Assembly (NCBI GenBank): GCA_945874895.1
Contig: CAMCIC010000011.1
Location: forward strand, 1 to 64,000
Origin: Akkermansia muciniphila
Lineage (GTDB): Bacteria; Verrucomicrobiota; Verrucomicrobiia; Verrucomicrobiales; Akkermansiaceae
Direction: 5' to 3'
Length of the DNA: 64,000 nucleotides
The translations under genes and the position numbers were made by a program. Shown here one piece after another: positions 13,033 to 35,700 of this stretch (its first letter is position 1; every line of letters starts with the position of its first letter). The notes below the pieces were generated by a model. The model saw nothing but the letters and a program-made list of their open reading frames with translations, did not search any database and was not told where the DNA came from.

Positions 13033-13632
13033 ATGACAGACCACATCTACACCGAATTTCATCGATTTCTTCAACGCGAGGAAAAAGAGCGCTTGCTGGG
13101 CCAGCGTGGCATGGTGATTTGGTTGTGTGGTTTATCGGGTTCGGGGAAATCCACCATCGCCAATGCTGCGGAGCGCGTGCTGCACCAGCAGGGTCGCGCC
13201 ACGGTCATTCTCGATGGCGACAACATCCGCTCTGGGCTCAATGCGAACCTGGGATTCTCGGATGATGATCGTCTTGAAAACATCCGTCGCATGGCGGAGG
13301 TGGCCAAGCTTTTTGCCTCTCAGGGCATGATCACTTTTGTTTCTGCCATCACGCCGCGCGGCGCGCTGCGCGATGTGGCGCGCGGCATCCTTGGTGATGA
13401 CTTTTATGAAGTCTACGTCAAAGCCAGCTTCGAGGCCTGCGCGGCCCGTGACGTAAAAGGCCTCTACGCCAAGGCCGCGCGCGGGGAAATCCAGCATTTC
13501 ACCGGCAAAGACAGTTCTTTTGAAGAACCCATCCAAGCCGACTTGGTGCTGGATAGCGAGGTTCTCAGTCTCGTGGAATGCGTCGATGCCCTCCTCGAGG
13601 CCACCTCGAAACGCCGCCATCTGTCCTGCTGA
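13033..13632 (+). CDS. cysC: Adenylylsulfate (APS) kinase
   Basis: A 199-residue cytosolic enzyme that phosphorylates APS with ATP to give PAPS. Walker A is GLSGSGKST (about residues 33-41). Family motifs LDGDNIRSGLNANLGFSDDD, ENIRRMAEVAKLF and VSAITPRG, and the lid region FTGKDSSFEEP, are all present, so the enzyme looks active. It precedes cysD by 118 bases on the same strand. No PAPS reductase (cysH) or sulfotransferase is in the window, so the fate of PAPS here (assimilation or sulfation) is open. Confidence 0.95.
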   Translation: MTDHIYTEFHRFLQREEKERLLGQRGMVIWLCGLSGSGKSTIANAAERVLHQQGRATVILDGDNIRSGLNANLGFSDDDRLENIRRMAEVAKLFASQGMITFVSAITPRGALRDVARGILGDDFYEVYVKASFEACAARDVKGLYAKAARGEIQHFTGKDSSFEEPIQADLVLDSEVLSLVECVDALLEATSKRRHLSC

Positions 13633-13670: not shown

Positions 13671-13701
13671 ATTTTTTCTTGACCGGGGAGAAATTTGCGG
13701 C

Positions 13702-13736
13702 AAATTCCGCGGCGCGCGACGCAAGTTGCGGAATTT
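13702..13736 (+). promoter_or_regulatory. Leader hairpin upstream of cysD
   Basis: AAATTCCGC (13702-13710) pairs perfectly with GCGGAATTT (13728-13736), followed by TTCCC and the ATG 14 bases later. It could reduce translation or act as an attenuator. It matches no riboswitch I know. Confidence 0.4.
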
Positions 13737-13750
13737 TTCCCTACGTCATC

Positions 13751-14656
13751 ATGCCCAACTACCAACTCAGCCATTTGGATCAATTGGAAGCGGAAGCCAT
13801 TTTTGTGCTCCGTGAAACGGCCGCCCAATTTGAAAACCCCGCATTGCTTTTCTCCGGCGGCAAGGACTCCATTGTCATGGCCTGGCTCGCTCGCAAGGCT
13901 TTCTGGCCCGCCAAGATGCCGTTTCCATTGGTTCACGTCGATACCGGTCACAATTTCGCCGAGACCATGACGTATCGCGATGAGTTCGTGGACATGATCG
14001 GTGCTCGTCTGGTGGTGGGCCTCGTTCAGGAATCGATCGACACCGGTCGCGTGGTGGAGGAAAAAGGTCCCAACGCCTCGCGCAACAAACTCCAGACCGT
14101 CACCTTGCTCGATACCATCGAAAAGCACCAATACGATGCCTGCCTCGGTGGTGGACGTCGTGATGAGGAAAAGGCCCGTGCGAAGGAGCGCTTTTTCTCG
14201 CATCGTGATGACTTCGGTCAATGGGATCCGAAAAATCAACGTCCCGAATTGTGGAATCTTTTCAACGGACGCAAGAATCCCGGTGAGCACTTCCGCGTGT
14301 TCCCGCTATCCAATTTCACCGAGATGGACATCTGGATGTATATCAAGCGTGAAAACATTCCTCTTCCCTCGATTTACTTCTCTCACGAACGCGAAGTGTT
14401 TGAGCGCAACGGCCAACTTCTCGCCGTGACCGATTTCCTTCAACCTCAGCCACACGAGCTCATCGAAAAACGCATCGTGCGGTTCCGCACCATTGGCGAT
14501 GCCACCTGCACCGGTGCCGTCGAGTCACGCGCCTCCAATCTCGATGAGGTCATCGCCGAGGTCGCTGCCGCCCGCCAGACCGAACGTGGCACCCGTGCCG
14601 ATGACAAACGTTCCGAAACCGCGATGGAAGACCGTAAGAAAGAAGGATATTTCTGA
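13751..14656 (+). CDS. cysD: Sulfate adenylyltransferase subunit 2
   Basis: A 301-residue catalytic subunit of ATP sulfurylase, the usual family length. It forms APS from ATP and sulfate with CysN. The PP-loop is FSGGKDSIVM (about residues 36-45). Other conserved segments are VDTGHNFAETMTYRDEF, GGGRRDEEKARAKER, FPLSNFTEMDIWMYI and the C-terminal GYF. The ATG at 13751 gives MPNYQLSHLDQLEAEAI, as in relatives. A further upstream frame adds 24 residues with no match to the family. cysN follows 98 bases later. Confidence 0.95.
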   Translation: MPNYQLSHLDQLEAEAIFVLRETAAQFENPALLFSGGKDSIVMAWLARKAFWPAKMPFPLVHVDTGHNFAETMTYRDEFVDMIGARLVVGLVQESIDTGRVVEEKGPNASRNKLQTVTLLDTIEKHQYDACLGGGRRDEEKARAKERFFSHRDDFGQWDPKNQRPELWNLFNGRKNPGEHFRVFPLSNFTEMDIWMYIKRENIPLPSIYFSHEREVFERNGQLLAVTDFLQPQPHELIEKRIVRFRTIGDATCTGAVESRASNLDEVIAEVAAARQTERGTRADDKRSETAMEDRKKEGYF

Positions 14657-14754: not shown

Positions 14755-15999
14755 ATGGATCTGTTACGTTTCACCACTGCCGGTTCCGTCGATGACGGTA
14801 AATCCACTCTCATCGGGCGCTTGCTCTATGATTCCAAATCGATTTTCGAGGACCAACTCGAGGCCGTGGAGGAATCCTCGCGCAAACGCGGCGATGAACA
14901 CGTGAACCTCGCTCTTCTCACTGATGGCCTGAAGGCCGAACGCGAACAAGGTATCACCATCGATGTTGCCTACCGCTATTTCGCTACGCCGAAACGCAAG
15001 TTCATCATCGCCGATACACCGGGGCACATCCAATACACTCGCAACATGGTCACTGGCGCCTCGACGGCGAACCTTGCCATCATTCTCATCGACGCCCGCA
15101 AAGGCGTGATCGAGCAAACCAAACGCCACAGCTTCATCGCGAACCTGTTGCGCATCCAGCACTTGGTGGTAGCGATCAACAAGATGGACCTCGTCGATTA
15201 TTCCGAGGAGGTTTATGACAAGATCGTCGAGGACTACCGTGCCATGGCATCGCGTCTCGGCAACATTGTCGATATCACCTTCATTCCCATCTCGGCGTTG
15301 AATGGTGATAACGTGGTCGATAAATCCGAAAACATGCCTTGGTATCAAGGTCCAGCTTTGCTTTATCATCTGGAGCACGTCTACATCGGCGGTGAGGAAA
15401 ACCACGTGGACGCCCGTTTCCCTGTGCAATGGGTGATCCGGCCGATGAGCGACGACTGGCACGACTTCCGTGGATACGCCGGTCGCGTCGCTGGTGGCGT
15501 GTTCAAGCCCGGCGATCGCGTCACTGTATTGCCCTCCGGATTTTCCACCCGCGTGAAAGCCATCCATTCTCCCGATGGCGAAAAAGAGGAAGCCTATGCG
15601 CCGCAATCCGTGTGCATTACGCTAGAGGATGAGATCGACATTTCCCGCGGCGACATGCTGGTGAAGGACAACAATCCGCCGCGCGTGGAGCAGGACATCG
15701 AGGCGATGATCTGTTGGTTCTCGAGCAAGCCGATGCCGCACCGCGCCAAACTGGTCTTGCGTCACACCACCCGTGAAACCAAGGCCGTTGTGCAGGAAGT
15801 AAAATACCACGTGGATATCAACACACTCCACAAAGTCGAGGGACCGGAAACATTTGCCATGAATGACATCGGTCGTATTTCTTTACGCACCGCTGTGCCG
15901 TTGATTCACGACAGCTACAGTCGCAACCGCCAGACCGGGAGCTTCATTCTGATTGATCCCGGCACGAATGAAACCGTGGGCGCAGGCATGATTGTTTGA
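14755..15999 (+). CDS. cysN: Sulfate adenylyltransferase subunit 1 (GTPase)
   Basis: A 414-residue GTPase subunit that drives APS synthesis with CysD. EF-Tu-like G motifs are GSVDDGKSTLIGRL (G1), GITIDVAYR (G2), DTPGHIQYTRNM (G3) and NKMD (G4). The GTPase domain is followed by two beta-barrel domains. It is not fused to CysC, which is a separate gene upstream (13033-13632). The gene order is therefore cysC-cysD-cysN on one strand. Confidence 0.95.
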   Translation: MDLLRFTTAGSVDDGKSTLIGRLLYDSKSIFEDQLEAVEESSRKRGDEHVNLALLTDGLKAEREQGITIDVAYRYFATPKRKFIIADTPGHIQYTRNMVTGASTANLAIILIDARKGVIEQTKRHSFIANLLRIQHLVVAINKMDLVDYSEEVYDKIVEDYRAMASRLGNIVDITFIPISALNGDNVVDKSENMPWYQGPALLYHLEHVYIGGEENHVDARFPVQWVIRPMSDDWHDFRGYAGRVAGGVFKPGDRVTVLPSGFSTRVKAIHSPDGEKEEAYAPQSVCITLEDEIDISRGDMLVKDNNPPRVEQDIEAMICWFSSKPMPHRAKLVLRHTTRETKAVVQEVKYHVDINTLHKVEGPETFAMNDIGRISLRTAVPLIHDSYSRNRQTGSFILIDPGTNETVGAGMIV

Positions 16000-16098
16000 G
16001 AGTCATGCCTCGCTCGCTAGTCTGATCGTCCTTTGGGATGGCGGGAAAATTCCCTCTATCTTTGGTGGTTTTATTCTGATATTCCATCTTGTGCAAAC

Positions 16099-17067
16099 AT
16101 GAGAGGCTCGAGTCAAAATGGTGGTCAAGTGAGGCTGGACATCAGTGCAGGCAAGAGCTCCAAGCGTCATGCTCACGAGGGAAAAAGCGTTGATTACACC
16201 TTGGATGATTTGATTCATCCGTCACCGGTTTCGGAAAAAACCTTGGAAAGCACCTGGGAGCAGAAACCAAGCCAAGTGCCGGACGTCGTGATCTGGTCTG
16301 GAGTGGGAATCGCAAGCCTTCTGGCTCTCGGTATTTTTTTCTGGCTGAGATCTGACACCCCATCCCGCCAGCAAGTTCCCATCGTGGAAATACCGGCAGA
16401 TCCAGAACCGGCATCGAACCTTCATGCAGCGTTGATGCAACCCGTCAGCGAGTATCTATCGGCTGATACGATAGAAAAAAAACGGGCCTACGTGAGAAAT
16501 CCGGAGCAAACGCTACAGCGAATGGAACACCATTATGCTGTCCATCCCCTCATCCCCCAAACCTGCGAGTCGTTCATCAAAATCCAACCATTCTTTTACA
16601 AGCAGCGGCAGCTGTGGCATGTCACCGCGAAAACTGGTAGAAATTCCGCTGTCGCTCTGATGCTTGAGCAGATGGCGGACGGAAAATTTCTGGTGGACTG
16701 GGAAAGCCATGTGGACTACCAGCCGATGCCCTGGAAGCAGTATCTGGAGGAAAAACCCAACAAGGAAATGGCGTTTCGTGTCATGGTGCAAGATTCGACG
16801 CATTATGCCTATGAATTTTCCAGTGAAACGCAATGGGCTGCCTACGAACTGACGCAGAGTCATTCCGAGGAAACAGCATACGGGTATGTCCTGCGCGATA
16901 GCGATGCCCACAAAGCCCTGACGGAAGGCCTATCGCAGGGGCCGAAAAGAATGATCCTGCGGCTTCAAGCTTCCAAGGGATTCGCGGCGCTAAGAGCCTT
17001 CGTCATCAAGGACCTGATCAGCGATTCCATCTATCGCATCGAACCACCATCATCCCTGGACGATTGA
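16099..17067 (+). CDS. Hypothetical protein with one membrane segment
   Basis: A 322-residue protein from the ATG at 16099. The open frame extends upstream but gives no leader. A charged, probably cytoplasmic N-terminus (~50 residues) precedes a single transmembrane helix (VIWSGVGIASLLALGIFFWL). A 230-residue outer domain with many aromatic residues follows (for example FLVDWESHVDYQPMPWKQYL). I recognise no enzyme motif. Similar one-TM proteins with a DUF-like outer domain are frequent in Verrucomicrobiales. It may be transcribed with cysN (99 bases upstream), but no link in function is visible. Confidence 0.75.
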   Translation: MRGSSQNGGQVRLDISAGKSSKRHAHEGKSVDYTLDDLIHPSPVSEKTLESTWEQKPSQVPDVVIWSGVGIASLLALGIFFWLRSDTPSRQQVPIVEIPADPEPASNLHAALMQPVSEYLSADTIEKKRAYVRNPEQTLQRMEHHYAVHPLIPQTCESFIKIQPFFYKQRQLWHVTAKTGRNSAVALMLEQMADGKFLVDWESHVDYQPMPWKQYLEEKPNKEMAFRVMVQDSTHYAYEFSSETQWAAYELTQSHSEETAYGYVLRDSDAHKALTEGLSQGPKRMILRLQASKGFAALRAFVIKDLISDSIYRIEPPSSLDD

Positions 17068-17112: not shown

Positions 17113-18228
17113 TCAAACGTTGAATCGGAACTCGATCACATCGCCATCCTTGACCGTGTAGTCTTTGCCCTCGATGCGCAGCTTGCCCACATCGCGTGCG
17201 GCGGCTTTTGATCCGCTGGCCACGAGGTCATCGAAATGCACGACCTCTGCGGCGATGAAACCGCGCTCGAAGTCGGTATGAATCACGCCGGCTGCGGCTG
17301 GAGCTTTATCCCCCTCATGAATCGTCCAGGCGCGCGTTTCCTGAACGCCGGTGGTCAGATAGGTGCGCAAGCCTAACAGGTGATAGACGCCACGGATCAG
17401 ATTGGATACGCCACTGTCGTTCACACCCATGTCGGCCAAGAAAGCCTCCGCTTCCTCGGGATCAAGATCGATCAATTCTTCCTCGATGCGGGCAGAGATC
17501 ACCACGCATTCGGCGCCGAAGTTTTCTGCGGCGAATTTCCTTACCTTCGCTACCAGCGGTTGAGAATCCGGATCGGCGCTGGCGCTGGCGAGTTCATCCT
17601 CGGAAACATTGCATGCATAGATGGTGCGCTTCATCGAGAGCAGGAAAAAGTCCTTCACGTAGGGCAGATCCTCTGTGGCGAAGCTTAGGGTGATGGCGGG
17701 CTTGCCGTCGTAGAGATGGGGCAGCAGGACATCGATGAGCTCCACTTCTTTTTTCGCTTCCTTGTCACCGGACTTGGCTTTTTTCTCACGGGACTGGCGG
17801 CGTTTTTCCATCGCGGTGATGTCGGCCAGGATCAGCTCGGAGTTAATGATCTCAATGTCGCGCACCGGATCCACGCTGCCCAGCTCGTGAATGATATCAT
17901 CGTTTTCAAAACAACGCACTACCTGCACGATGGCATCCGTCTCGCGGATGTTGGCGAGGAACTGGTTGCCTAGACCTGCGCCTTCGGAAGCACCTTTGAC
18001 CAGACCGGCAATATCGACAAATTCGATCGCCGCGGGCACCAGTTTTTTCGAACCGGAAAGTTGGGACAGAATGGCGAGCCGAGGATCTGGCACAGTAACG
18101 ACTCCGACGTTCGGGTCGATGGTGCAGAAGGGATAATTGGCGGCCTCCGCTTTGCGCGAGCGGGTGACGGCATTGAAGAGGGTGGATTTCCCGACGTTGG
18201 GCAGACCTACGATTCCAGCTTTGAGCAT
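17113..18228 (-). CDS. ychF: YchF/OLA1-family P-loop ATPase
   Basis: A 371-residue cytosolic protein. It starts [20 protein letters not shown]. The open frame extends 38 residues further upstream but without family match. Walker [11 protein letters not shown]3 [20 protein letters not shown], the NSEL-type region in place of canonical G4, and the C-terminal TGS domain ([20 protein letters not shown] to the EFRFNV end) are complete. YchF binds ribosomes and prefers ATP, and is linked to stress responses. It is divergent from the nitric oxide synthase gene with 157 bases between starts. Confidence 0.95.
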
Positions 18229-18352
18229 GACGCGCTGAGATTGCGCAGGTTGTGTGGGTCTGGTAAAGGCAAATTCATTCGTGGGCTTGTGGATGGAATG
18301 CCGAACGCATGCGGCTGGGGTGAGGCTCTCCTCAATCAACAAAAAAATCGCC

Positions 18353-18385: not shown

Positions 18386-19528
18386 ATGACGCAGATGTTT
18401 CATTATCCTGAAGGAAAAAGCGCGCGGGCGCCGACGGCGAACCTGCTACGTGAGTATCAGGAATTTCTCCAACGTGCCGAGAGCGAGGGCGTCATGCCCG
18501 GGAGCGAGGTGCAGTGCCATGCCACCGAGCCGCCGGCTTTGGATTCGTCGCTTCTCGTCTTCGCCGGTCGCATGGCATGGCGCAATAGCACGCGTTGTGT
18601 GGGTCGTTTTTTCTGGCAGAGCTTGCAAGTCAGGGATTGCCGTGACCTTTGCCATCCAGATGATATTTTTGAAGCATGCTTGGAGCATTTGCGTTTTGCC
18701 ACCAATGGCGGGAAGATTCGCCCTTTGCTCACGGTTTTTGCCGCAGCGAGCGAGGGTTCATCGGAGCCGCGGATTTTGAATCACCAATTGATTCGCTATG
18801 CTGGCTACGATCTCGGCAATGGCCGCATCATCGGAGATCCGCAAAACATTTCGTTCACCAAGCATGCAATTCACTGCGGTTGGAGACCGCCTGCGGACCC
18901 GGGCGCCTTCGACCTGCTGCCTGTGGCCATCAGCATGCCGGAGCAGCCCGTGTGTTGGTATGAAATGCCTCGCAGCGAGGTGTTAGAGGTTTCGCTGCGT
19001 CATCCTCGCTATGCATGGTTTGCGGACTTAGGTTTGAAGTGGCACGCCCTACCGGTGATCACAGATATGTGCTTCGCCGCTGCCGGAGCCAGATACACTT
19101 GCGCTCCTTTCAGCGGGTGGTATATGGGAACCGAAATCGGCGCGCGCAATCTCAGCGATGTAAGCCGTTACAACATGCTTCCTCTCATCGCAAGCCGCAT
19201 GGGCTTGGATACGAGCCGTGCGAATCCGCTGTGGAAAGATCGCGCTTTGATCGAGCTCAACGATGCGGTGATTCACTCGTTCGCACAGGACGGCGTCACC
19301 ATGGTCGATCATCATAGCGCGACAGAACAGTTCATGCGATTCCAAAAACGGGAGAGCCAATGTGGGCGCGCGGTCAAGGGCGACTGGAGTTGGCTGGTGC
19401 CACCGTTATCCGGCTCTACGACGCCGGTTTTTCACAATTCGTTTGATCCCCGCGCAGAGCTGCCCAATTTTTTCTACCAGGATTCCGCTTGGCAGGTGGA
19501 AGACGAGGGGAATCCTGAAATTTCCTGA
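18386..19528 (+). CDS. nos: Nitric oxide synthase oxygenase (bacterial NOS)
   Basis: A 380-residue heme enzyme of the NOS oxygenase family that oxidises L-arginine to citrulline and NO. The heme-ligand motif is MAWRNSTRCVGR with Cys71 and Trp66. The substrate site PFSGWYMGTEIGARNL contains Trp245 and Glu250, which hold the arginine guanidinium. Conserved DHHSATEQFMRF, GDWSWLVPPLSGSTTPVFH (pterin side) and NFFYQ follow. As in other bacterial NOS there is no N-terminal zinc hook and no attached reductase, so electrons must come from other flavoproteins. No reductase or biopterin gene is adjacent. The family is best known from Firmicutes, Deinococcus and actinomycetes. Confidence 0.93.
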   Translation: MTQMFHYPEGKSARAPTANLLREYQEFLQRAESEGVMPGSEVQCHATEPPALDSSLLVFAGRMAWRNSTRCVGRFFWQSLQVRDCRDLCHPDDIFEACLEHLRFATNGGKIRPLLTVFAAASEGSSEPRILNHQLIRYAGYDLGNGRIIGDPQNISFTKHAIHCGWRPPADPGAFDLLPVAISMPEQPVCWYEMPRSEVLEVSLRHPRYAWFADLGLKWHALPVITDMCFAAAGARYTCAPFSGWYMGTEIGARNLSDVSRYNMLPLIASRMGLDTSRANPLWKDRALIELNDAVIHSFAQDGVTMVDHHSATEQFMRFQKRESQCGRAVKGDWSWLVPPLSGSTTPVFHNSFDPRAELPNFFYQDSAWQVEDEGNPEIS

Positions 19529-19570: not shown

Positions 19571-20536
19571 ATGAAATCGATTGTCTCCACCATCGCCCTC
19601 TCCTTTTTGTTCGCTGTGCCGAGCCTTGCTGCGGAAAAACTCAAGGCCCTGATCGTCGATGGTCAGAACAACCACGCTGTGTGGCCTAAGTCCACGGTGA
19701 TGATGAAAGACTATCTCGAAAACAGCGGCTTGTTTCAGGTGGATGTGGCACGCACCAAGTTCATCAGCAATCATCAGCGTGAAAAAGACTGGCTCCCCTT
19801 GGCCGGTGCTCCCGAGGCTGAGGGCAAGGATAAGCCCATGCCGGATCCGGACTTTGCTCCCGATTTCTCGAAATACAGCATCGTTGTCAGCAACTTCGGT
19901 TACGGGGCGGCGGATTGGCCCGAGGGCACGCGCAAGAAGTTCGAAGACTACATGAAAAATGGCGGAGGCTTGGTGGTGGTGCATGCTGCAAACAACAGCT
20001 GGGCGAATTGGCCGGAGTTCAATAAGATGATTGGTCTCGGCGGCTGGGGTGGACGCAATGAAAAATCCGGTCCCTACGTTTACTTCGATGCGAGTGGCAA
20101 GGCCATCCGCGATGGCAGCCCAGGTGGTTGCGGCTCCCATGGTCCGCAAGGCGAGTTCCTCATCACCATGCGCGACAAAGAGCATCCCATCACCAAGGGT
20201 TTGCCAGATTTCTGGATGCACACCAAGGATGAGTGCTATTCGAAATTGCGTGGTCCTGGCGAAAACATGACCATTCTCGCCACGGCAGCAGATACTCCCG
20301 CCCTCAAGCAGGCTGGTCGCAATGAGCCCATGCTCATGGTGCTCTCCTATGGCAAGGGTCGTGTTTTTCATACCACCCTAGGCCACGATGTTGATGCCTT
20401 TCAGGGAGTGGGTTTCATCGTCACCTTCCTGCGCGGATCCGAGTGGGCTGCCACCGGTAAGGTCACTCAGGATCTCCCCAAGGATTTCCCTGCTGCGGAC
20501 AAAGCCACCTCCCGTCCTTACGAGCGGAAGAAGTAA
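19571..20536 (+). CDS. Secreted ThuA-domain protein
   Basis: A 321-residue protein with a signal peptide (MKSIVSTIALSFLFAVPSLA). The rest is a ThuA-like (trehalose-utilisation, glutamine-amidotransferase-like) domain: KALIVDGQNNHAVWPKS, VVSNFGYGAADWPE, GGGLVVVHAANNSW, EHPITKGLPDFW and GKGRVFHTTLGHDV. ThuA proteins bind or modify sugar-related compounds, but the reaction is not settled. The GTG at 19553 is an alternative start but puts six residues before the leader. It converges on the sulfatase gene at 20555. Confidence 0.88.
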   Translation: MKSIVSTIALSFLFAVPSLAAEKLKALIVDGQNNHAVWPKSTVMMKDYLENSGLFQVDVARTKFISNHQREKDWLPLAGAPEAEGKDKPMPDPDFAPDFSKYSIVVSNFGYGAADWPEGTRKKFEDYMKNGGGLVVVHAANNSWANWPEFNKMIGLGGWGGRNEKSGPYVYFDASGKAIRDGSPGGCGSHGPQGEFLITMRDKEHPITKGLPDFWMHTKDECYSKLRGPGENMTILATAADTPALKQAGRNEPMLMVLSYGKGRVFHTTLGHDVDAFQGVGFIVTFLRGSEWAATGKVTQDLPKDFPAADKATSRPYERKK

Positions 20537-20554: not shown

Positions 20555-22036
20555 TCACTGTGGGCGGGTGACGGGTTGTGCCCTCGTTTTTTCTAACAGA
20601 TCTGCCATTTTTTTCGCTACTTGGACTTGCTGGGAGAAGAGGTTTTGGCTTTCACCTGGATCCTTTGCTAGATCATAGAGGGCAGGCCGCGCGGGCGCAT
20701 CCTGCTTATTCTTGCCTGCTTGCCAACCATCAGCCAAGTTGAGGTTGGGCATGTATTTCCAGTTTCCGCTGCGGAGGGCGAGATGGCCAGTGCCGCTCAT
20801 GACAACGAGATGATCGCGCATGGGAGCATTGGTTTCGCCGCGCAGGGAGGGGAAGAGATTGTAGCTATCCGGCAGTGCGTTTTGCGGGAGCTTTACTCCA
20901 GCGGCACCGCAGATGGTGGCGGGGATGTCGATGGTGGAAACGAGTTCTTTCCGCTCGCCAGAGCTGATGTGACCCAGCCAGCGGGTGATGAAGGGAACGC
21001 GATGGCCGCCTTCCCAGAGTTGGGATTTTTTTCCGCGATAGGGACCGTTGGGCTTGTGATCTTTTTCATCGGTAACGTAGGCCCCGTTGTCACTGCTGTA
21101 TATCACCAGTGTGTCCTTAGCGAGATTCAGCCGATCCAAGGTTTGGAGAATTGCGCCGATCGATGCATCGAGCTCATGCAGCATGTCCGTGCGATTCCCC
21201 AGGCCGCTGCTGCCTGCAAAACGCGGGTGTGGGATGGTCGGAGCGTGGACGTCGTGGGGCGTGAACATGAGGAAAAATTTCCTGTTCTGATTTCGTTCCA
21301 GAAATTGTATGCATTCGCGCATGTGGGTATCTGCGATGTCGGCGTCTTTCCACCAGGCCGACTTGCCGCCTTTGCCCCAGCCGATGCGGTTGCGACCAGC
21401 GGCGAACGGTGAGAGACCGAGTTTCTGCGCCTCCTCTTTGTCGTAGGAAACGTGGATCGGGTCACTGGCATCGAGCCCTACCACGCGGTGATTGCGCACA
21501 AACACGGTGGGAATGCGGTCGTTGGTGGCAGGGATGCCGAAGAATTCGTGAAAGCCGATTTCAAGAGGCCCCGGATGCAGCTCTCCATTGTAATCGGGGC
21601 GATCGACACCAAAGCCCAGATGCCATTTGCCGATCATGGCGGTCTGATACCCTGCTTGCTTAAGCAGTCCCGGCGCTGTGGTCATGGAAGGAGAAATCAA
21701 TAGGGGCGAATCGCCAGCGGCCACGCCCTTGTTCAGTCCCATGGCGTTTTGTCGCCAGGAATATTGGCCCGTGATGAGAGAATAGCGGGTGGGTGTGCAG
21801 CAGGCAGCAGAGGCATGCCCGTCGAGAAAGCGCTGACCCTCGCGTGCGAGGCGATCGATATGGGGTGTTTTAACTTTCGTAGCACCGTAGCAACCGGCAT
21901 CGCCCCAACCCACATCATCGGCGAGGATGACGATGATGTTGGGTGTTTGATGCGAAGTCTCGGCCGCGTGACTGAACCATGTCGTAATGGCAATGCTACA
22001 GAGCGAGCAAAGAAAACGTAAGGGTTTGGTTTGCAT
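20555..22036 (-). CDS. Secreted sulfatase
   Basis: A 493-residue protein from the ATG at 22036, which opens a clear signal peptide (MQTKPLRFLCSLCSIAITTW then FSHA). An ATG eight codons upstream is also possible. Metal-site ILADDVGWGDAGCYG and formylglycine motif CTPTRYSLITGQ (Cys80, canonical C-x-P-x-R) are present, as are IGKWHLGF, FTPHDVHAPTIPH and YSSDNGAY. The substrate is likely a sulfated glycan. It lies 68 bases downstream of the next sulfatase gene on the same strand, so the two probably form an operon. The maturase is not in the window. Confidence 0.93.
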   Translation of the reverse strand: MQTKPLRFLCSLCSIAITTWFSHAAETSHQTPNIIVILADDVGWGDAGCYGATKVKTPHIDRLAREGQRFLDGHASAACCTPTRYSLITGQYSWRQNAMGLNKGVAAGDSPLLISPSMTTAPGLLKQAGYQTAMIGKWHLGFGVDRPDYNGELHPGPLEIGFHEFFGIPATNDRIPTVFVRNHRVVGLDASDPIHVSYDKEEAQKLGLSPFAAGRNRIGWGKGGKSAWWKDADIADTHMRECIQFLERNQNRKFFLMFTPHDVHAPTIPHPRFAGSSGLGNRTDMLHELDASIGAILQTLDRLNLAKDTLVIYSSDNGAYVTDEKDHKPNGPYRGKKSQLWEGGHRVPFITRWLGHISSGERKELVSTIDIPATICGAAGVKLPQNALPDSYNLFPSLRGETNAPMRDHLVVMSGTGHLALRSGNWKYMPNLNLADGWQAGKNKQDAPARPALYDLAKDPGESQNLFSQQVQVAKKMADLLEKTRAQPVTRPQ

Positions 22037-22104
22037 CGTTTTTTTATGATTGATTGTCATAGCAGAAGGGCGAGAGGCGGAAGCAAAGAGGGCCCACGGA
22101 TTTT

Positions 22105-23454
22105 TTACTCGCTGGTTTTGGCGTTGGGTTCCGGGTCAGCGGAGGGCACGGCTTTGTGAAGAAGTTGGTCTAACAGCATTTTCATTTCCGTGACTTTTTG
22201 CGGTTGGCTTTCGGCGAGGTTTTTGGTTTCCCCGAGATCTTCTCTGAGGTGATAGAGTTCATATTCTGGCATGTCCGCGGGAGATTTCTTTTTTCTGGCA
22301 GTTGCGGCCTTTCGATGGATGAGTTTCCAGTCGCCCGCCCGCACGGCGGCGAGACCAGGTTGTGTGCTGGAAAGCAAAAGGGCATCGTGAGGGGACTTCG
22401 CCTCTGCGGTTAGCACAGGCCAGATGTCCTTGCCATCGATGGGAAGTTTTTGTTCGAGCGAACCGCCCGCCCGCTGAATCAGGGTGGGATACCAATCGAT
22501 GATGTGCAGCGGATGATCGATGATTTTTCCGGCGGCAATTTTGCCCGGCCAGGTGGCGAAGGCGCATACACGAACGCCGCCCTCGTAGATGGTTCCTTTG
22601 CCCTCGCGCAGCGGACCGTTATCCGTGATTTTCCCTGGGGATGGGCCACCGTTGTCGCTCGAAAACACGATCAGTGTGTTGTCACGCATCTTTTGTTCCT
22701 CCAGTGTTGCCACGATTTGGCCGATGGCTTCATCCATGGCGGAGAGCATGCCCGCGTAGGTTTTTCGGTTGCCTTTCAGCGAGGCATAGGGTGCCACGTA
22801 GGAATCCGGCACCTGCAAGGGGCCATGTACCGCATTGAATGGCAGGTAAAGAAACAGTGGTTTTTTGAGATCGCGTTTGCGAATGCGTTCGCAAGCTTCT
22901 TTGGCAATCAAATGGGTCGAATAGCCTTGGTCTTCGCAGGGTTGGTCGTTGCGATGCCAATCGAGAATTTTGCCACGCTTGTGGGTGTAAAAATCGATCA
23001 TGCCGAACCATAAGCCGTATTGATGGTCGAACCCGCGTTGGGTCGGTTGATAGGCGGACTGAAATTCACCGAGATGCCATTTGCCACTGATCGCCGTCTC
23101 GTAGCCTGCATTCTTCATGGCTTGCGCGAGAGTTTTTTCCGTTAAAGGGAGTCCCCAAGATGCGTTGGGCCGCACGATGCTATACACGCCGGTATGGGCG
23201 ACGTAGCGACCTGTCATGAGCGATGCGCGAGTGGGCGAGCAGACGGGTTGCACGTAGAACGATCGCAAAATCGCGCCTTCTTTGGCAAGGCGATCGAGGT
23301 GCGGCGTTTTGATATCTTTTGCACCATTGAATCCCGCATCGGCATAGCCCATGTCATCGGCCATGATGTAGAGAATGTTCGGTTTTGTCTCAGTAGCAAA
23401 TCCCTGAAATGCAAGATTCATGCAGCAGAGGATGAGTGACAGTGGGCGTTTCAT
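22105..23454 (-). CDS. Secreted sulfatase
   Basis: A 449-residue protein with signal peptide MKRPLSLILCCMNLAFQGFA. The motifs are MADDMGYADAGFNG, CSPTRASLMTGRY with Cys72 as the formylglycine residue, SGKWHLGEF, LPFNAVHGPL and FSSDNGGPSPG. It is the first gene of a two-sulfatase pair reading leftward. It differs clearly from its neighbour in sequence, so they probably act on different linkages of one polymer rather than being a recent duplication. Confidence 0.93.
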   Translation of the reverse strand: MKRPLSLILCCMNLAFQGFATETKPNILYIMADDMGYADAGFNGAKDIKTPHLDRLAKEGAILRSFYVQPVCSPTRASLMTGRYVAHTGVYSIVRPNASWGLPLTEKTLAQAMKNAGYETAISGKWHLGEFQSAYQPTQRGFDHQYGLWFGMIDFYTHKRGKILDWHRNDQPCEDQGYSTHLIAKEACERIRKRDLKKPLFLYLPFNAVHGPLQVPDSYVAPYASLKGNRKTYAGMLSAMDEAIGQIVATLEEQKMRDNTLIVFSSDNGGPSPGKITDNGPLREGKGTIYEGGVRVCAFATWPGKIAAGKIIDHPLHIIDWYPTLIQRAGGSLEQKLPIDGKDIWPVLTAEAKSPHDALLLSSTQPGLAAVRAGDWKLIHRKAATARKKKSPADMPEYELYHLREDLGETKNLAESQPQKVTEMKMLLDQLLHKAVPSADPEPNAKTSE

Positions 23455-23590
23455 GGGTTGATCAGAGGATACGTAAGAATAGGATAGAAAACTATCAAAG
23501 CAGGGAAAATGGGAGGAGAGGGAAAATCAGTGCCCCGCGCGGCGCCTCACAGGTTCTTGACATTCGGGTCAGGTGCGGGGACGATCATTC

Positions 23591-24556
23591 ATGGCGGAAC
23601 CGATCGAACAGTGGCTCAAGCATCTCGATGCGATACTCGAGCAGCATCCATTCGAAACTGCGGAAGAAGCCGAGGCCTGGCTGAGGGAGCAATCGCAGAA
23701 TCGCACGATCGAGGAATTTTTCGAGCAATGCGGCACGCCTGTCCTGCGCCTTACCATGTTGTGGCAACGCGCGGAACAGGCCGAGGATCCGCAAGCCGCC
23801 TTGGAGCTGTATGACCGCGCCATTGCGCATGCGGAAGAATCTCTGGTGGAAGAAATCGAGCAGGCGCGCCAAGGTCCGGCGACATGGCCAGAAAGCAAGG
23901 TCTACAGTTATCTCTGCTGCTTGTCCGGTCGCGCAGGGTGCATGGAAATGCTGGGTGCACTCGATCGTGCGGAAGCCGCCTATCAGCAGGTATGGGATGC
24001 TGATCCCTTGGATTCATTTGGTGTAGCGGAAAAATTGTTTTCGCTGTGCCTGACCGATGGCCGCTTGTCTGATGCGCGGTCATGGTTGGATCGTTTGGCT
24101 GACGATGATGGCACTACTTTGTGTTACCATCGTGCTCTCCTGCGTTTTCTGGAGGCTGCTGATGTGGCCGAGCAGGCCTACCAAGAAACGGGTGATGTGG
24201 CGGCGGCGCACGCTTGGGAAGATCCTGAAGCGAACCGTTTGTTAGATCTTGCCTTGCAACGCAATCCATTTGTCGCCGCCATCATGGCTCATCCGCGCGC
24301 CTTTGAATTGGAATTTCCCAAAGAGGCGCCATGGGGCAGTCCTGCCGAGGCCGTGCAGGTGATGTTTGCATCGGCTCATTTATGGCTCAGCGATTTTCTG
24401 GCGCTGCATTGGTTGATCGGACGGTCGCAACGATTTTCTTTGCAGGATCATCTGCACTCCGCTGCGTGGCGTTGCATGTTAGATGAGTTGGGTGGGGAGC
24501 CTACCGATGAGGAGCGCGTCGCGTATTTGCGACAGTTGGAGGAAATGGATGGCTGA
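23591..24556 (+). CDS. TPR-like helical protein
   Basis: A 321-residue soluble protein, almost wholly helical. It contains degenerate tetratricopeptide-type pairs such as DPQAALELYDRAIAHAEESL and GALDRAEAAYQQVWDADPLD. The second half (LLDLALQRNPFVAAIMAHPR) has the look of a family-specific cap. No signal or catalytic motif is present. A consensus -35 TTGACA at 23557 lies 34 bases before the ATG, so the message may be leaderless. Its role is unknown, probably a scaffold. Confidence 0.75.
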   Translation: MAEPIEQWLKHLDAILEQHPFETAEEAEAWLREQSQNRTIEEFFEQCGTPVLRLTMLWQRAEQAEDPQAALELYDRAIAHAEESLVEEIEQARQGPATWPESKVYSYLCCLSGRAGCMEMLGALDRAEAAYQQVWDADPLDSFGVAEKLFSLCLTDGRLSDARSWLDRLADDDGTTLCYHRALLRFLEAADVAEQAYQETGDVAAAHAWEDPEANRLLDLALQRNPFVAAIMAHPRAFELEFPKEAPWGSPAEAVQVMFASAHLWLSDFLALHWLIGRSQRFSLQDHLHSAAWRCMLDELGGEPTDEERVAYLRQLEEMDG

Positions 24557-24567
24557 TACGACTCCGA

Positions 24568-25497
24568 TCACTGACCGTTTTGGGGTGGTGACAGATCGCG
24601 CATTCCTTTCAAACCTTCCATCATGGCCTTTAAACCCGTGGTCAGCTTTTGTGCGCTGGCCATGGTTTGATCCAGTCTTTCCAGTTCCATTGCCGGCAGA
24701 TTGCCGTCTTGGAAGGGCATTTGCTGGGGATTTTTCCCGCGTGCTTCCGTGGCTTTTTGAACAATGCCTGCCAATTTTTGTTGCTGATCCGCCGTGAGGA
24801 TTTCTTGCAACTGCTCGGCGAGAATCGGGTCGCTCAGGTCATTGCCGCCACGTCCCGAGAATGCGAAGCCGCTCACGTTGCGCATGACGGCCAATGTATC
24901 ATCGGCGATCGCATCGTATTCCTGCTGGTTGATTTCTCCGCGTTTGAGAGCATCACCCGCGAGAATCGTTTCCATCATGCCTGAGGGATCGGCTTCCAAT
25001 GCGGCGGCCAACTCATTGACCGCATCCATGCGCTCACCTACGCGTTGTTCTACGATGGTTGCGGCTTTGTTTTTTTGTTCATCGTTCAATTCCAACCGCG
25101 AAGCCAGAGCATCCGATGCTTGTTTGATGGCGAGCTCTTTGGCCGATGAGGCACCTGCGAGTCCTGCTCCCATGTCGGCGAGCTGCATGGCGTCTTTCAT
25201 CAGTCCCGCCATGTCCTGGGTAATTTTTTTCGACAGCTTGGTGCGGCCGTCGCCATATTTTTCCGCCAGTTTGGCCCATGCGCCATCGGAGCCACGATCG
25301 TTCGAAGAAGCTTTTGCCCCTACAGCGGGTGCGTTGCCTGCATTCGTGGCATTGGTTTTCAAGGCCGTTGCCATCGCCGCCGCCGCGGATTCTTCCGTAT
25401 CCGAGTTGTTTTTTTTGCCCATGGTGGAGCCGAGATACATTCCGCCAGCGAGCAGCGCGATGCCGGCAACGGCAATCATCAAATTTTTTTGTTTCAT
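24568..25497 (-). CDS. Membrane-anchored helical protein of unknown function
   Basis: A 309-residue protein from the ATG at 25497 with one N-terminal hydrophobic anchor (MIAVAGIALLAGGMYLGSTM). A low-complexity Ala/Asn linker and a long helical domain rich in Glu, Gln and Met follow. The segment ELNDEQKNKAATIVEQRVGE and later ILTADQQQKLAGIV resemble the LTxxQ/Spy-type pattern of periplasmic chaperones, but the match is weak. It is divergent from the TMEM43-family gene with 119 bases between starts. Confidence 0.7.
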   Translation of the reverse strand: MKQKNLMIAVAGIALLAGGMYLGSTMGKKNNSDTEESAAAAMATALKTNATNAGNAPAVGAKASSNDRGSDGAWAKLAEKYGDGRTKLSKKITQDMAGLMKDAMQLADMGAGLAGASSAKELAIKQASDALASRLELNDEQKNKAATIVEQRVGERMDAVNELAAALEADPSGMMETILAGDALKRGEINQQEYDAIADDTLAVMRNVSGFAFSGRGGNDLSDPILAEQLQEILTADQQQKLAGIVQKATEARGKNPQQMPFQDGNLPAMELERLDQTMASAQKLTTGLKAMMEGLKGMRDLSPPQNGQ

Positions 25498-25616
25498 AGA
25501 GGCTTGATCGGAACAAAAGCGTTTCGCGTTGATTGTTCCGTTCAAATTTCACCACAAAATGTGCTTTTCAGCAAGATACAAACGTGGAACATGGGGATCA
25601 CTCCATTCATCATCTC

Positions 25617-28803: not shown

Positions 28804-30255
28804 TTACTCCTGCGTGTGGCGTTTTTCTAAGGCCACCATGGTGATGTCGTCCATTTGCGGTGCGTTACCAGTGAAGTCCTTGAGGGTGCGAAGCATTTTT
28901 TGTAGCACGATCTCCGCGCCCAGTGGCGAGCTTTGGAGGAAAGTTTCTTTCATGCGCTCGATGCCGAATTCTTCGTCCGCGCCGTTAAGCGCTTCTTTCA
29001 CCCCATCGGTGTGCAGCAACAGGCAGTCCCCGGGGGCGATTTGGAAAGCGAAGTCCTTGGTCACCCGCTCGAACACATCGCCTTCATCGATGCCCACTGC
29101 CAGCCCTGAGGGTTTGATTTGGGTGATTTCGCCGCTGTCCTTGTGAAACCAGAAGGCGGGATCATGTCCTGCGCGCGCCATCACCGCGTGGCCTTGATCG
29201 CCATCGAGAATCAGATAGGCCATGCTGATGAACATGTCCTCGCGGATGTCGGGAAATAGTTGGCGGTTTACCAAGGAAAGGACTCGCGCCGGCGAGGTTT
29301 GGTCCATCGCTACGCAGCGCAGCACGCTCCGGCACATGGCCATCAGCAAGCCCGCCGCCACTCCTTTGCCGGAAACATCCGCGATGACCAGTCCCCAGCG
29401 CTTGTTGCCGAGATCGATGAAGTCGTAATAATCCCCGCTGATGATGCGAGCAGGTGTATTGGTGCCAGCCACACGGTATCCTTCGATCGAGGGGTTATGC
29501 TGGGGCAGAAGAATCCGCTGCACTTCGCGTGCGGTGCGCAGCTCGTTTTCCAAAGTTCGTTTTTCGTTCGCTTCCTGATGCACCATCGAGTTGCCCAAGG
29601 CAAACGATGACTGTTCAGCCACGGAACGGAAGACGGCGAAGTCATGTTCCTTGAACTCGCCTTGGCTGTGCGGCTTGGCCACGGCGAGCACTCCCAGATC
29701 CTTGCCGCCGTGACGCAGCGGTGCGATCATGGCAGAGACGTTCTCATCATAGCTGACAAAGGCATCGCGGAACGACTCGTGGGTTTTTACGTCCGGCACG
29801 TGCACAGCTTTTCCCACAGTCAGACAATGTCCCAATACCCCCTCGTCGCTCGCTTGGTTCGACAAACGGAAATGGCTCTCCGCCGCGCGGGAATCCTTCT
29901 GTGCCCTGCGCATGACCTCAAGAGGAAGGCCGATGAGCTGAGGACAGCGTTCGCTCACGTATTTCGGCACCAGCCACTGTCGTGTTTCATTACTCAAATA
30001 AATCGCACCTCCTTGGGCGCTTACAACATCCACTACACCGTCTACGATGGTACGGTTTACGCTGTGGGGCGATGAGTCTTTTTCGATGGCCTCGCCGAGA
30101 TCGTGAAGAAAGTGGAACATGCGCTGTTCCTCGCCGACGATCTCGCTCTTTTCTTTTTCTAACAGTTTTGCACTGCGTCGGGCTCGCCATCCCCACAAGC
30201 CGATCAACACCAGCAAGGCCGCCAATCCGCACACGATGTAAAATTCAAGCGACAT
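28804..30255 (-). CDS. RsbU-like PP2C (SpoIIE) phosphatase with GAF domain
   Basis: A 483-residue protein with one N-terminal TM helix (FYIVCGLAALLVLIGLWGW), a GAF sensory domain (about 45-225) and a SpoIIE-type Ser/Thr phosphatase domain (about 245-480). The metal-binding residues are in RIISGDYYDFIDLG and VIADVSGKGVAAGLLMA, then MARAGHDPAF, LLLHTDGVKEA and QMDDITMVALE. It probably dephosphorylates a STAS-domain anti-anti-sigma factor. The STAS gene lies 33 bases upstream on the same strand. The matching kinase is not in the window. Confidence 0.92.
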   Translation of the reverse strand: MSLEFYIVCGLAALLVLIGLWGWRARRSAKLLEKEKSEIVGEEQRMFHFLHDLGEAIEKDSSPHSVNRTIVDGVVDVVSAQGGAIYLSNETRQWLVPKYVSERCPQLIGLPLEVMRRAQKDSRAAESHFRLSNQASDEGVLGHCLTVGKAVHVPDVKTHESFRDAFVSYDENVSAMIAPLRHGGKDLGVLAVAKPHSQGEFKEHDFAVFRSVAEQSSFALGNSMVHQEANEKRTLENELRTAREVQRILLPQHNPSIEGYRVAGTNTPARIISGDYYDFIDLGNKRWGLVIADVSGKGVAAGLLMAMCRSVLRCVAMDQTSPARVLSLVNRQLFPDIREDMFISMAYLILDGDQGHAVMARAGHDPAFWFHKDSGEITQIKPSGLAVGIDEGDVFERVTKDFAFQIAPGDCLLLHTDGVKEALNGADEEFGIERMKETFLQSSPLGAEIVLQKMLRTLKDFTGNAPQMDDITMVALEKRHTQE

Positions 30256-30288
30256 GTTTTGGGTTCGTGAGGAGACGGCATGACGACC

Positions 30289-30834
30289 TCAGCCGGAGGT
30301 GGACCCTAGTTCTTTTTCTAACAGTTGCACCACGTTATCAAACTTCTCTGCGTTGTCTTGGTTGGTGGCGGAGAGGATCTTGTGCGCTTCGAGAACTTCT
30401 TGGCTGCGCTCGCGCATGTTCAGCACAGCGCCAGTCCACGGTTGCAGTTGCCTGCGGATTTCCTCCAGTGCTGTCGCCCAGGGTGCCTCTGTGGGGTTGA
30501 TTTCCATCAGCGCGTTGAGTCCCAGATCTTCGAGCGAGGCGACATTCTTTTCCGCTGCGCCTGCGATTTCCAATCGCCCGCCATCGGATTGTTTGCTCAG
30601 TCGTATCGCCAAGCCTGCCAGCATGCCCATGAAGGTAGAGTCCATGCCCGTGCACAAGTGCAAGTCGATCACCACGCACCGTTCACCGTCTTGCAGGCTG
30701 CGCTCCGCGCATTGTTTTACCGCGGGGCTGCTCATGAAGTTTCCCTTGCCGGCACAACGGATCCACGAGTAGCCGTCAAATTTTCCCCAGTCGATATGAC
30801 TTGATTCACTCACAAATGACCTTAGCCGCAACAT
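30289..30834 (-). CDS. STAS-domain protein (anti-sigma factor antagonist type)
   Basis: A 181-residue protein. Residues ~14-115 form a STAS domain with CVVIDLHLCTGMDSTFMGML, where the Ser in MDSTFMG is the usual phosphorylation site. A C-terminal helical extension (~60 residues, ending DNVVQLLEKELG) is longer than in SpoIIAA/RsbV. With the adjacent SpoIIE-type phosphatase it forms a partner-switching pair for a sigma factor or another output. The kinase and target are elsewhere. Confidence 0.87.
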   Translation of the reverse strand: MLRLRSFVSESSHIDWGKFDGYSWIRCAGKGNFMSSPAVKQCAERSLQDGERCVVIDLHLCTGMDSTFMGMLAGLAIRLSKQSDGGRLEIAGAAEKNVASLEDLGLNALMEINPTEAPWATALEEIRRQLQPWTGAVLNMRERSQEVLEAHKILSATNQDNAEKFDNVVQLLEKELGSTSG

Positions 30835-32713: not shown

Positions 32714-35700
32714 TTAGAGGCTCTTCAGATAGGCAGTGATGTCGGCTATGGCTTGCGGGGTGAGGCCGAGATTCGCGGGGCTATACATCAGGGATTTTTC
32801 CATGGGCTTCACAGAGGCAATGCGCGATTTGGCGATCGTCTGAGTTTGTCCGCCCATGCATTTCACGATCAAAGGATCGCCATCGCTGAGCACCATGCCG
32901 ACGATGGTGATGCCGTCTTTCGTTTTGATTTCGGTGCCTTCGTAGCCATGCGAAACTTCCGCGCTGGGATTGGCGATGGCGTTGATGATCACATCAGCAG
33001 GTTGCTGGCGACCGAAGCTGGTAAGATCAGGACCGTAATCGATGCCTTGATCGCCGACTTTGTGGCACATGTAGCAGGAAGCGATGGCAGTTTTGCCACG
33101 ATCCTTATCGCCCGTAAGTTTGGCAATTTCCGCTACGCTGGGGAGTTTCGGTGCATGGGCGGGAATGGCGGGCATTTCTACCGCCACCAATTTCACGTTC
33201 GCGGGGTCTTGGCCCATGGATTTGAGGATGGCATCGAGATTGTGCGATTTCCAGAGATTGCCCTTACGATTGTTGATCCACCATTTCGCCAGATCTTTGT
33301 GCACAAAGCCTTCGGTGTTGGTGATTTGTAGCATCGCACCAGAGGCAGCGGCACTTGGATTGAAGCCGAGGGCGGTGAGCATGAGCTTCGATTGTTCCGG
33401 ACTGGTGCTGGCGGCGAGGGCGCGCAGTTTGAGATCGGCCACGGATTGGTTCGGATGCAAACGCCAGGCGATCCAGGCAAAGGAGTCGCTCCATTTGTCC
33501 CCACTCCCTTGTTTCATCAACTTGCGAGCGGCATCGTAGACGGCGGCTTCCTTGCCCGTGGAACCGAGGCCCAGAGCTTCGAGATAGGCGCGGTCTTGGC
33601 CATCGAATTGCGCGGCGATTTGCGCAAGCAGGGGAACGCTTTGGGCGGCGGGGGTCGCACGCAACATCAGGGCAACCTCGCGGCGCACCATGGCGGATGG
33701 ATCTTTGACCATTTTTTCGGCGAGTTTCACGACGTCCCCGCCAGCAGCGCGCAGGGCGCGGACAGCGACCAGACGTTGGCGTGGCTCCTTGGCGGAGAGC
33801 AACTGACTCACGATTTCCTGACCTTGATCGCCCATTTGTGCCAGCAGCCACACGGCACGGGCAGCGATGTAAGGATTGCTGTCCTTGAGCAGGGCGCTCA
33901 CGGCGGGGATCGCCTTCGCACCCTGGGCCTTGAGGCGGGTGAAGCCGCTGTTGCGCACGTTCACGGCTGGACTTTTCAGTGCGGCGATTTGGCCCTCGGT
34001 GGTCGTGAGATCGATCTTGGGAACGACGGACTTAAAGCCTTTCGGTGCGATCCGATAGATGGTGCCAGATTGGCCTTTGTCTCCGGTGCCGTGACCACCG
34101 ACGCGGGGATCAAACCAGTCAGCCACGTAAAGCGCGCCATCAGGCCCCACGGCCACATCACTGGGGCGGAATCGCGTTTTTAGATCGTTGTTGGTGCGGC
34201 CGATGAAATCGGAGCCAGCGAATTCACCTTCTTTGTTGGAGGTCAGGAAGTCGATACGCTTCAGCGTGAAGCCAGCACCGTTGGGCACCGGCAGGTAACC
34301 GAAGACCACATTCTTGCCGGCCTCGCAGGCAAGCAGCAGGCCCTGCCACTTGTCTCCAAGCGCGCCGTTTTCATAAAACGCCACGCCAGTGGGAGAGCCT
34401 CCACCATACACATCACCCGAGGGCATAGTGCCGGGATCTTCCTGACGCCACTCAGCCGTGGGTGTATCCTGTCCTGGACGCTTGTCTGCACCCCAGCTGC
34501 GTTGGCCATCCGCCGAGGAAAATCCGGCATTGCCGCCTTCCATGATTTCAGCCACACGACAGGCGGGTGGGTCGTCATTATCGCTCTGGAACATGTCGCC
34601 GAAGGAGGTGAGTGCTTGCTCATAGGAATTGCGATAGTTGTGTCCGACAATGCGAGCATTCGTGCCATCGGGATTCATGCGCACGGAAAATCCGCCGACC
34701 CATACATTTCCGTCATCACTGCGCTGGCCAGCGATGCTGCGAGTATCCGCATACCAGGTGCCGCCACCGCTTTGGTAGTAACTGCTGCCGATGCGAAAGG
34801 TCTTACCAGATTTATCGGTGAAAATGCCACCGCAGTTGCCGTTGTTGAAATTCCACTGGCCATCCGGTCCCGCGGTCAAGCTATGGAGGCTGTGGTCGTG
34901 CTGGCGCGCATTGAAGCCAGTGAGCAACACTTCTTTTTTGTCGACCGCTGGGTCGAATTTGCGGTCGCCATTGACATCCGTATAAACGATCAAATCCGGC
35001 GGTTGCGAGACCACGACTTTGTTGTCGAGCACGGATACGCCGAGCGGAGATTCGAGATTGGGATCTTGGGTAAAGACGTTGCTTTCATCGGCCACGCCAT
35101 CGCCATCGGTATCGGCGAGGATCACGAGGCGGTCGCCGGCTGGTCGGGAATTTTTCGCATGACGGTAATTCACACCTTCTGCCACGTAGAGTCGGCCGTC
35201 TTTGTCGAAGTCGATATTGGTGGGGTTGAACAACTGCGGTGTGGTGGCCCAGATCGAGATTTCCAGTTGATCATCGGCGATGGAGAATCGGTCTTCAGGC
35301 ACCAGAACTGCTTGCAGTTCGGCGGCCCCGCTTGCGGGTTTTTGTGAATAAACGGCGAATTTCACACTGGAATTTTTGTTAACGCCCTGTTGGACGGCGC
35401 CGCCGTCATCGATGCCCACCTTCGCGCTGAAACTATCCACACCTGCGGGCAGATCGAACACGATGGTAGATGCCGCATGCGTGCCTATGCCTTTCGCATA
35501 CGTTTGCTTGTCGATGACCAGAGGATTGCCTTGAACGTTTTTGCCGACCTTGCACTGCCCCCAGCCTGATTCGGCCGAGCGCCATTTCAATTCTGTGAGA
35601 TCTTTTTTCGAACCATCGGCCATGATTAAGGTAGGCTCGATCCAGTCGGCCCAATCGAAGCTGTTTTCCCCGGCTTCTTCCACGACGAGATAGAGTTCTT

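Follow-up and report, generated by a model that had tools for sequence, protein, structure and literature searches.

Among the described nitric oxide synthases (NOS), those of Bacillus subtilis (bsNOS) and Geobacillus have no reductase in cis, and the self-sufficient enzyme of Sorangium cellulosum (scNOS), of the same oxygenase family, carries an N-terminal 2Fe2S/FAD/NAD reductase (PMC3701330). According to a review, His128, Ile218 and the Asn (bsNOS) separate the bacterial from the mammalian enzymes (PMC9500659). A NOS gene has also been noted in an Opitutae MAG of the Verrucomicrobiota and was described as common among the other MAGs that were reconstructed (Cabello-Yeves et al. 2017, PMC5673642). 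The part of that article considered here describes freshwater MAGs in which the gene has no toxin-biosynthesis neighbours, and contains no sequence analysis or phylogeny of the NOS. The gene described below lies in a stretch of 64,000 nucleotides (the window) from an Akkermansia muciniphila genome; it likewise belongs to the Verrucomicrobiota and lacks such neighbours, whereas the hosts in the earlier report were Opitutae and other MAGs. It provides a well-supported NOS for a phylum where mentions of the enzyme exist but studies are scarce.

Identity and active site of the enzyme

The nos frame is intact from the ATG at 18386 to the stop codon at 19526-19528 (Table 1) and encodes a single-domain protein of 380 aa with short ends. 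Residues 53-370 matched positions 47-362 of the NO_synthase profile (PF02898) with 460.1 bits (E 6.1e-138), the curated Pfam cut-off being 22.7 bits. The best PDB matches in a phmmer search were bacterial NOS (2flq, 1.7e-111), the solved bacterial structures overall falling at about 1e-111 to 1e-102, with bsNOS at about 1e-105 and mammalian NOS at about 1e-99. The top PDB match of an AlphaFold2 model (pLDDT 84.9) in Foldseek was also bsNOS (7.5e-39, TM 0.82/0.86). These matches are far beyond chance and bear out the preliminary description, which had called the product a NOS oxygenase; judged by sequence and predicted fold, the gene is a real, intact and canonical single-domain bacterial NOS. 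There is no fused reductase, which sets the protein apart from eukaryotic-type and self-sufficient enzymes (mammalian NOS, scNOS, SyNOS). The whole genome contains one NOS copy, and a promoter scan found no sigma-70-type site.

Table 1. Features of the nos locus, with positions in the window.
Feature	Position	Strand	Remarks
APS kinase (cysC)	13033-13632		upstream of nos
CysD	13679-14656		upstream of nos
CysN	14755-15999		upstream of nos
344-aa frame	16033-17067	+	between cysN and ychF; no Pfam/NCBIfam match at E 0.001
ychF	17113..18342	-	TIGR00092, 468 bits; divergent from nos; context only, not in NOS system
nos, single-domain NOS oxygenase, 380 aa	18386..19528	+	predicted from PF02898 (460 bits), PDB bacterial NOS (1.7e-111) and fold match
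Cys71 codon, proximal heme ligand, in WRNSTRCVGR	18596..18598	+	aligned with bsNOS Cys66
Codons 245-255, WYMGTEIGARN: arginine site (Trp245, Glu250) and bacterial-type Asn255	19118..19150	+	alignments with bsNOS and 140 NOS
Trp334-Ser-Trp336 codons, pterin-side motif	19385..19393	+	aligned with bsNOS 327-329
ThuA-domain protein, signal-peptide-like N-terminus	19571..20536	+	PF06283, 94.5 bits; 42 bases after nos; context only
Two sulfatases	20555-23454	opposite to nos	

The protein is identical to bsNOS at 156 of 309 aligned residues, about 50% over the oxygenase domain. It differs from bsNOS and Geobacillus NOS in this divergence from bsNOS and in its verrucomicrobial host, and shares with both the length, the domain plan, the heme Cys, the Glu/Trp arginine site, the pterin Trp and the bacterial His/Ile/Asn signature. 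Every catalytic residue aligned with a bsNOS counterpart (Cys71 with Cys66, His133 with His128, Ile225 with Ile218, Glu250 with Glu243, Asn255 with Asn248, Trp334 with 327 and Trp336 with Trp329), and the heme, arginine and pterin residues are complete. The residues singled out in the preliminary description (Cys71, Trp245/Glu250 and WSWLVPP) were thus correctly identified, and His133, Ile225 and Asn255 are all of the bacterial type. In an alignment of 140 NOS sequences, Cys71 was kept in all rows except one gapped row, the two tryptophans of DWSWLVPP (Trp334 and Trp336, the pterin-stacking Trp at the dimer interface) were invariant, and Arg74, Glu250 and Arg254 were, like these, essentially invariant.

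Fusions with the inverted domain order of scNOS were observed at two other loci, L049:5700-8951 (+) and L153:1-2648 (-), the latter cut by the contig end. Here two cNMP-binding domains stand in front of a BFD-like 2Fe-2S domain and an FAD/NAD reductase, with the NOS oxygenase at the C-terminus; one host is a gammaproteobacterial MAG, the other a genome of the Verrucomicrobiota.

Distribution and active-site types in the Verrucomicrobiota

A clear NOS was present in 73 of 260 genomes of the same family (75 were listed, and two very weak matches were discounted), spread over seven genera in a Pfam search, and in 17 of 388 genomes sampled evenly across the phylum. Within the genus, 6 of the 9 other genomes have one. 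Two candidates, G080 and G578, reached E values of about 4e-4 and 8e-4 at 25-36% identity over stretches of about 100 aa at most and were rejected as NOS. The gene is therefore widespread but patchy in the family, being common in some genera and missing from others, and is scattered through the phylum. Because of these counts and the 2017 report (PMC5673642, as far as considered here), the occurrence of NOS in Verrucomicrobiota is not new. The suggestion that the phylum is an unexpected one for the enzyme is accordingly weak, and the verrucomicrobial clade that the preliminary description had named as evidence against its own reading has largely come to light; the complete oxygenase stands, the rarity in the phylum does not.

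The main clade of family NOS (for example L128, L129, L131 and L139) resembles the window NOS in being single-domain, present in single copy and without generally conserved neighbours. It differs in forming a separate clade, in replacing the bacterial His mostly by Arg, Thr or Ser, and in carrying Tyr, Phe or His where GWYMGTE has its Trp. This position, Trp245 in the window enzyme, was Tyr, Phe or His in 41 of the 140 aligned NOS. These 41 are without exception verrucomicrobial, and the six genus-mates are among them (GWYMGTE becoming GY or GH there), whereas the Trp was kept by the window enzyme and by every non-verrucomicrobial sequence in the set. At least two changes of the Trp are needed on a tree of 60 rows, and a targeted literature search brought up nothing on what such a change means for function.

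Most of the loci L128-L147, L151, L161-L165 and L178-L201 encode such Trp-less enzymes, with the catalytic core otherwise intact. The Gly of MGTE is also changed, to Val, Ser, Ala or Glu, in about a dozen of the 41.

Origin of the window copy

The family NOS fell in several separate clades in protein trees, and the named records pairing closely with them were an Akkermansiaceae MAG and a Luteolibacter MAG, from which the family is probably GTDB Akkermansiaceae. The window NOS formed a long, deep and unplaced single branch, its nearest rows by path including Chloroflexota, Actinomycetota and other Verrucomicrobiota. Its identity to the NOS of its genus-mates is 51-55%, although the flanking YchF, at 90-95%, marks the window genome as their close relative; the other genus pairs compared had 63-84% in NOS at 86-98% in YchF. 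A tree constrained to unite it with the two nearest genus-mates, a choice made on YchF similarity once the first tree was known, was rejected (p-AU 0.0195, lnL difference 56). The simplest reading of these sequence comparisons, and the most likely one, is that the genome would have acquired a canonical NOS independently of the NOS of its genus-mates. The phylogeny proposed in the preliminary description as a check for transfer thus favours transfer relative to the genus without pointing to one donor.

Constraint of the window NOS with the whole main family clade was not rejected (p-AU 0.26), so an old paralogue followed by losses could take the place of transfer: a family ancestor would have had two NOS types of the same enzyme function, of which the window genome kept the canonical and its genus-mates the Trp-less one. 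The G+C content of nos (56%, and 63% at third positions) fits such a history in matching that of the neighbours, so that no recent foreign signature was seen in the comparison of composition with these genes. We nevertheless regard vertical descent of this kind as rather unlikely, since no genome in the family search has two NOS genes and many parallel losses would be required.

The family NOS could be a single-gene mobile unit with at least two active-site types, namely a Trp-less one, confined to Verrucomicrobiota in this set, in which the substrate-pocket Trp is replaced, and canonical ones like the window copy, which would have entered this genome independently; we put this forward tentatively. 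The Trp-less type may then differ in arginine handling or NO release. A canonical NOS within a genus of otherwise Trp-less NOS is a natural contrast, and the pair is suited to a simple test of the role of the Trp.

Gene neighbourhood and candidate partners

The neighbours listed in the preliminary description (sulfate activation, YchF and sulfatases) were right, and the adjoining downstream gene for a ThuA-domain protein had been left out. The TIGR00092 match begins at about residue 39 of the ychF frame, and its true start is therefore probably near 18228. Roughly 40 window ORFs were scanned, and as had been stated for the vicinity of nos, none was a NOS-type reductase or pterin gene. All-against-all clustering of verrucomicrobial loci revealed no gene family that generally accompanies NOS, the commonest besides NOS itself occurring in 5 loci, and no other locus fetched had a YchF or ThuA orthologue next to its NOS. 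An empty-site comparison with genus-mates found no conserved arrangement of genes about ychF and the gene for the ThuA-domain protein. The neighbours of nos are not conserved, and the context says nothing on its functional role, whether as to the antioxidant or signalling use of NO or the nitration chemistry that the preliminary description put forward as candidates.

Elsewhere in the genome, a family search found a CysJ-like NADPH flavoprotein (586 aa, 667 bits, on contig 1) as well as FolE2, dihydrofolate reductase (DHFR) and a PTPS-family gene; FolE was not found. Bacterial NOS reportedly operates without a dedicated redox partner, as the title of Gusarov et al. (2008) states. Given the flavoprotein, FolE2 and DHFR, the use of tetrahydrofolate and a general flavoprotein reductase is plausible, and these three would plausibly suffice for that mode of action. 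By analogy with the family, the predicted heme-thiolate homodimer would convert L-arginine to N-hydroxyarginine and on to citrulline and NO, using O2. Its electrons would come from a general flavoprotein, be it the sulfite reductase subunit of the CysJ type or some other reductase of the cell, and its pterin would be tetrahydrofolate. It is highly probable that these elements hold jointly, namely a putative canonical single-domain bacterial NOS that makes NO from arginine with a general flavoprotein and tetrahydrofolate, was separately acquired, and has a context uninformative on its role.

Streptomyces pathways use bacterial NOS genes for nitration (PMC9500659), and the NOS fold could have been repurposed to bind heme and arginine while supplying a specialised pathway mainly with nitrated products, nitroxyl or N-hydroxyarginine. 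This is very improbable given the canonical active site and the window ORFs scanned, among which there was no nitration-type P450 and no biosynthetic or natural-product gene cluster of the TxtD/RufN type. Mis-binning of the nos contig from outside the Verrucomicrobiota, which the unlikeness of the window NOS to that of the genus might suggest, is strongly disfavoured by YchF (95%) and ThuA (85%), which flank nos on the same contig and, within the genomes searched, have their nearest matches in genus-mates, by an estimated contamination of 0.03% and by the uniform base composition. We thus retain the reading of a separately acquired canonical NOS in a verrucomicrobial genome.

Several other genes in the window were recorded. 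Two further long frames near nos, 23573-24556 (+) and 24568-25545 (-), were like the 344-aa frame of Table 1 without a Pfam or NCBIfam match at E 0.001 (325-344 aa for the three). The segment 5573-7246 (-) encodes an AbiEii nucleotidyltransferase (PF08843); together with the DUF6088 gene that precedes it, it resembles a type IV toxin-antitoxin/abortive-infection pair. A GAF-SpoIIE phosphatase adjoining a STAS-domain protein at 28804-30834 (-) is likely a partner-switching regulatory pair. The frame at 32714-36805 (-) encodes a protein of 1363 aa with ThuA, NPCBM, DUF7133 and HEAT domains and a weak match to cytochrome c.
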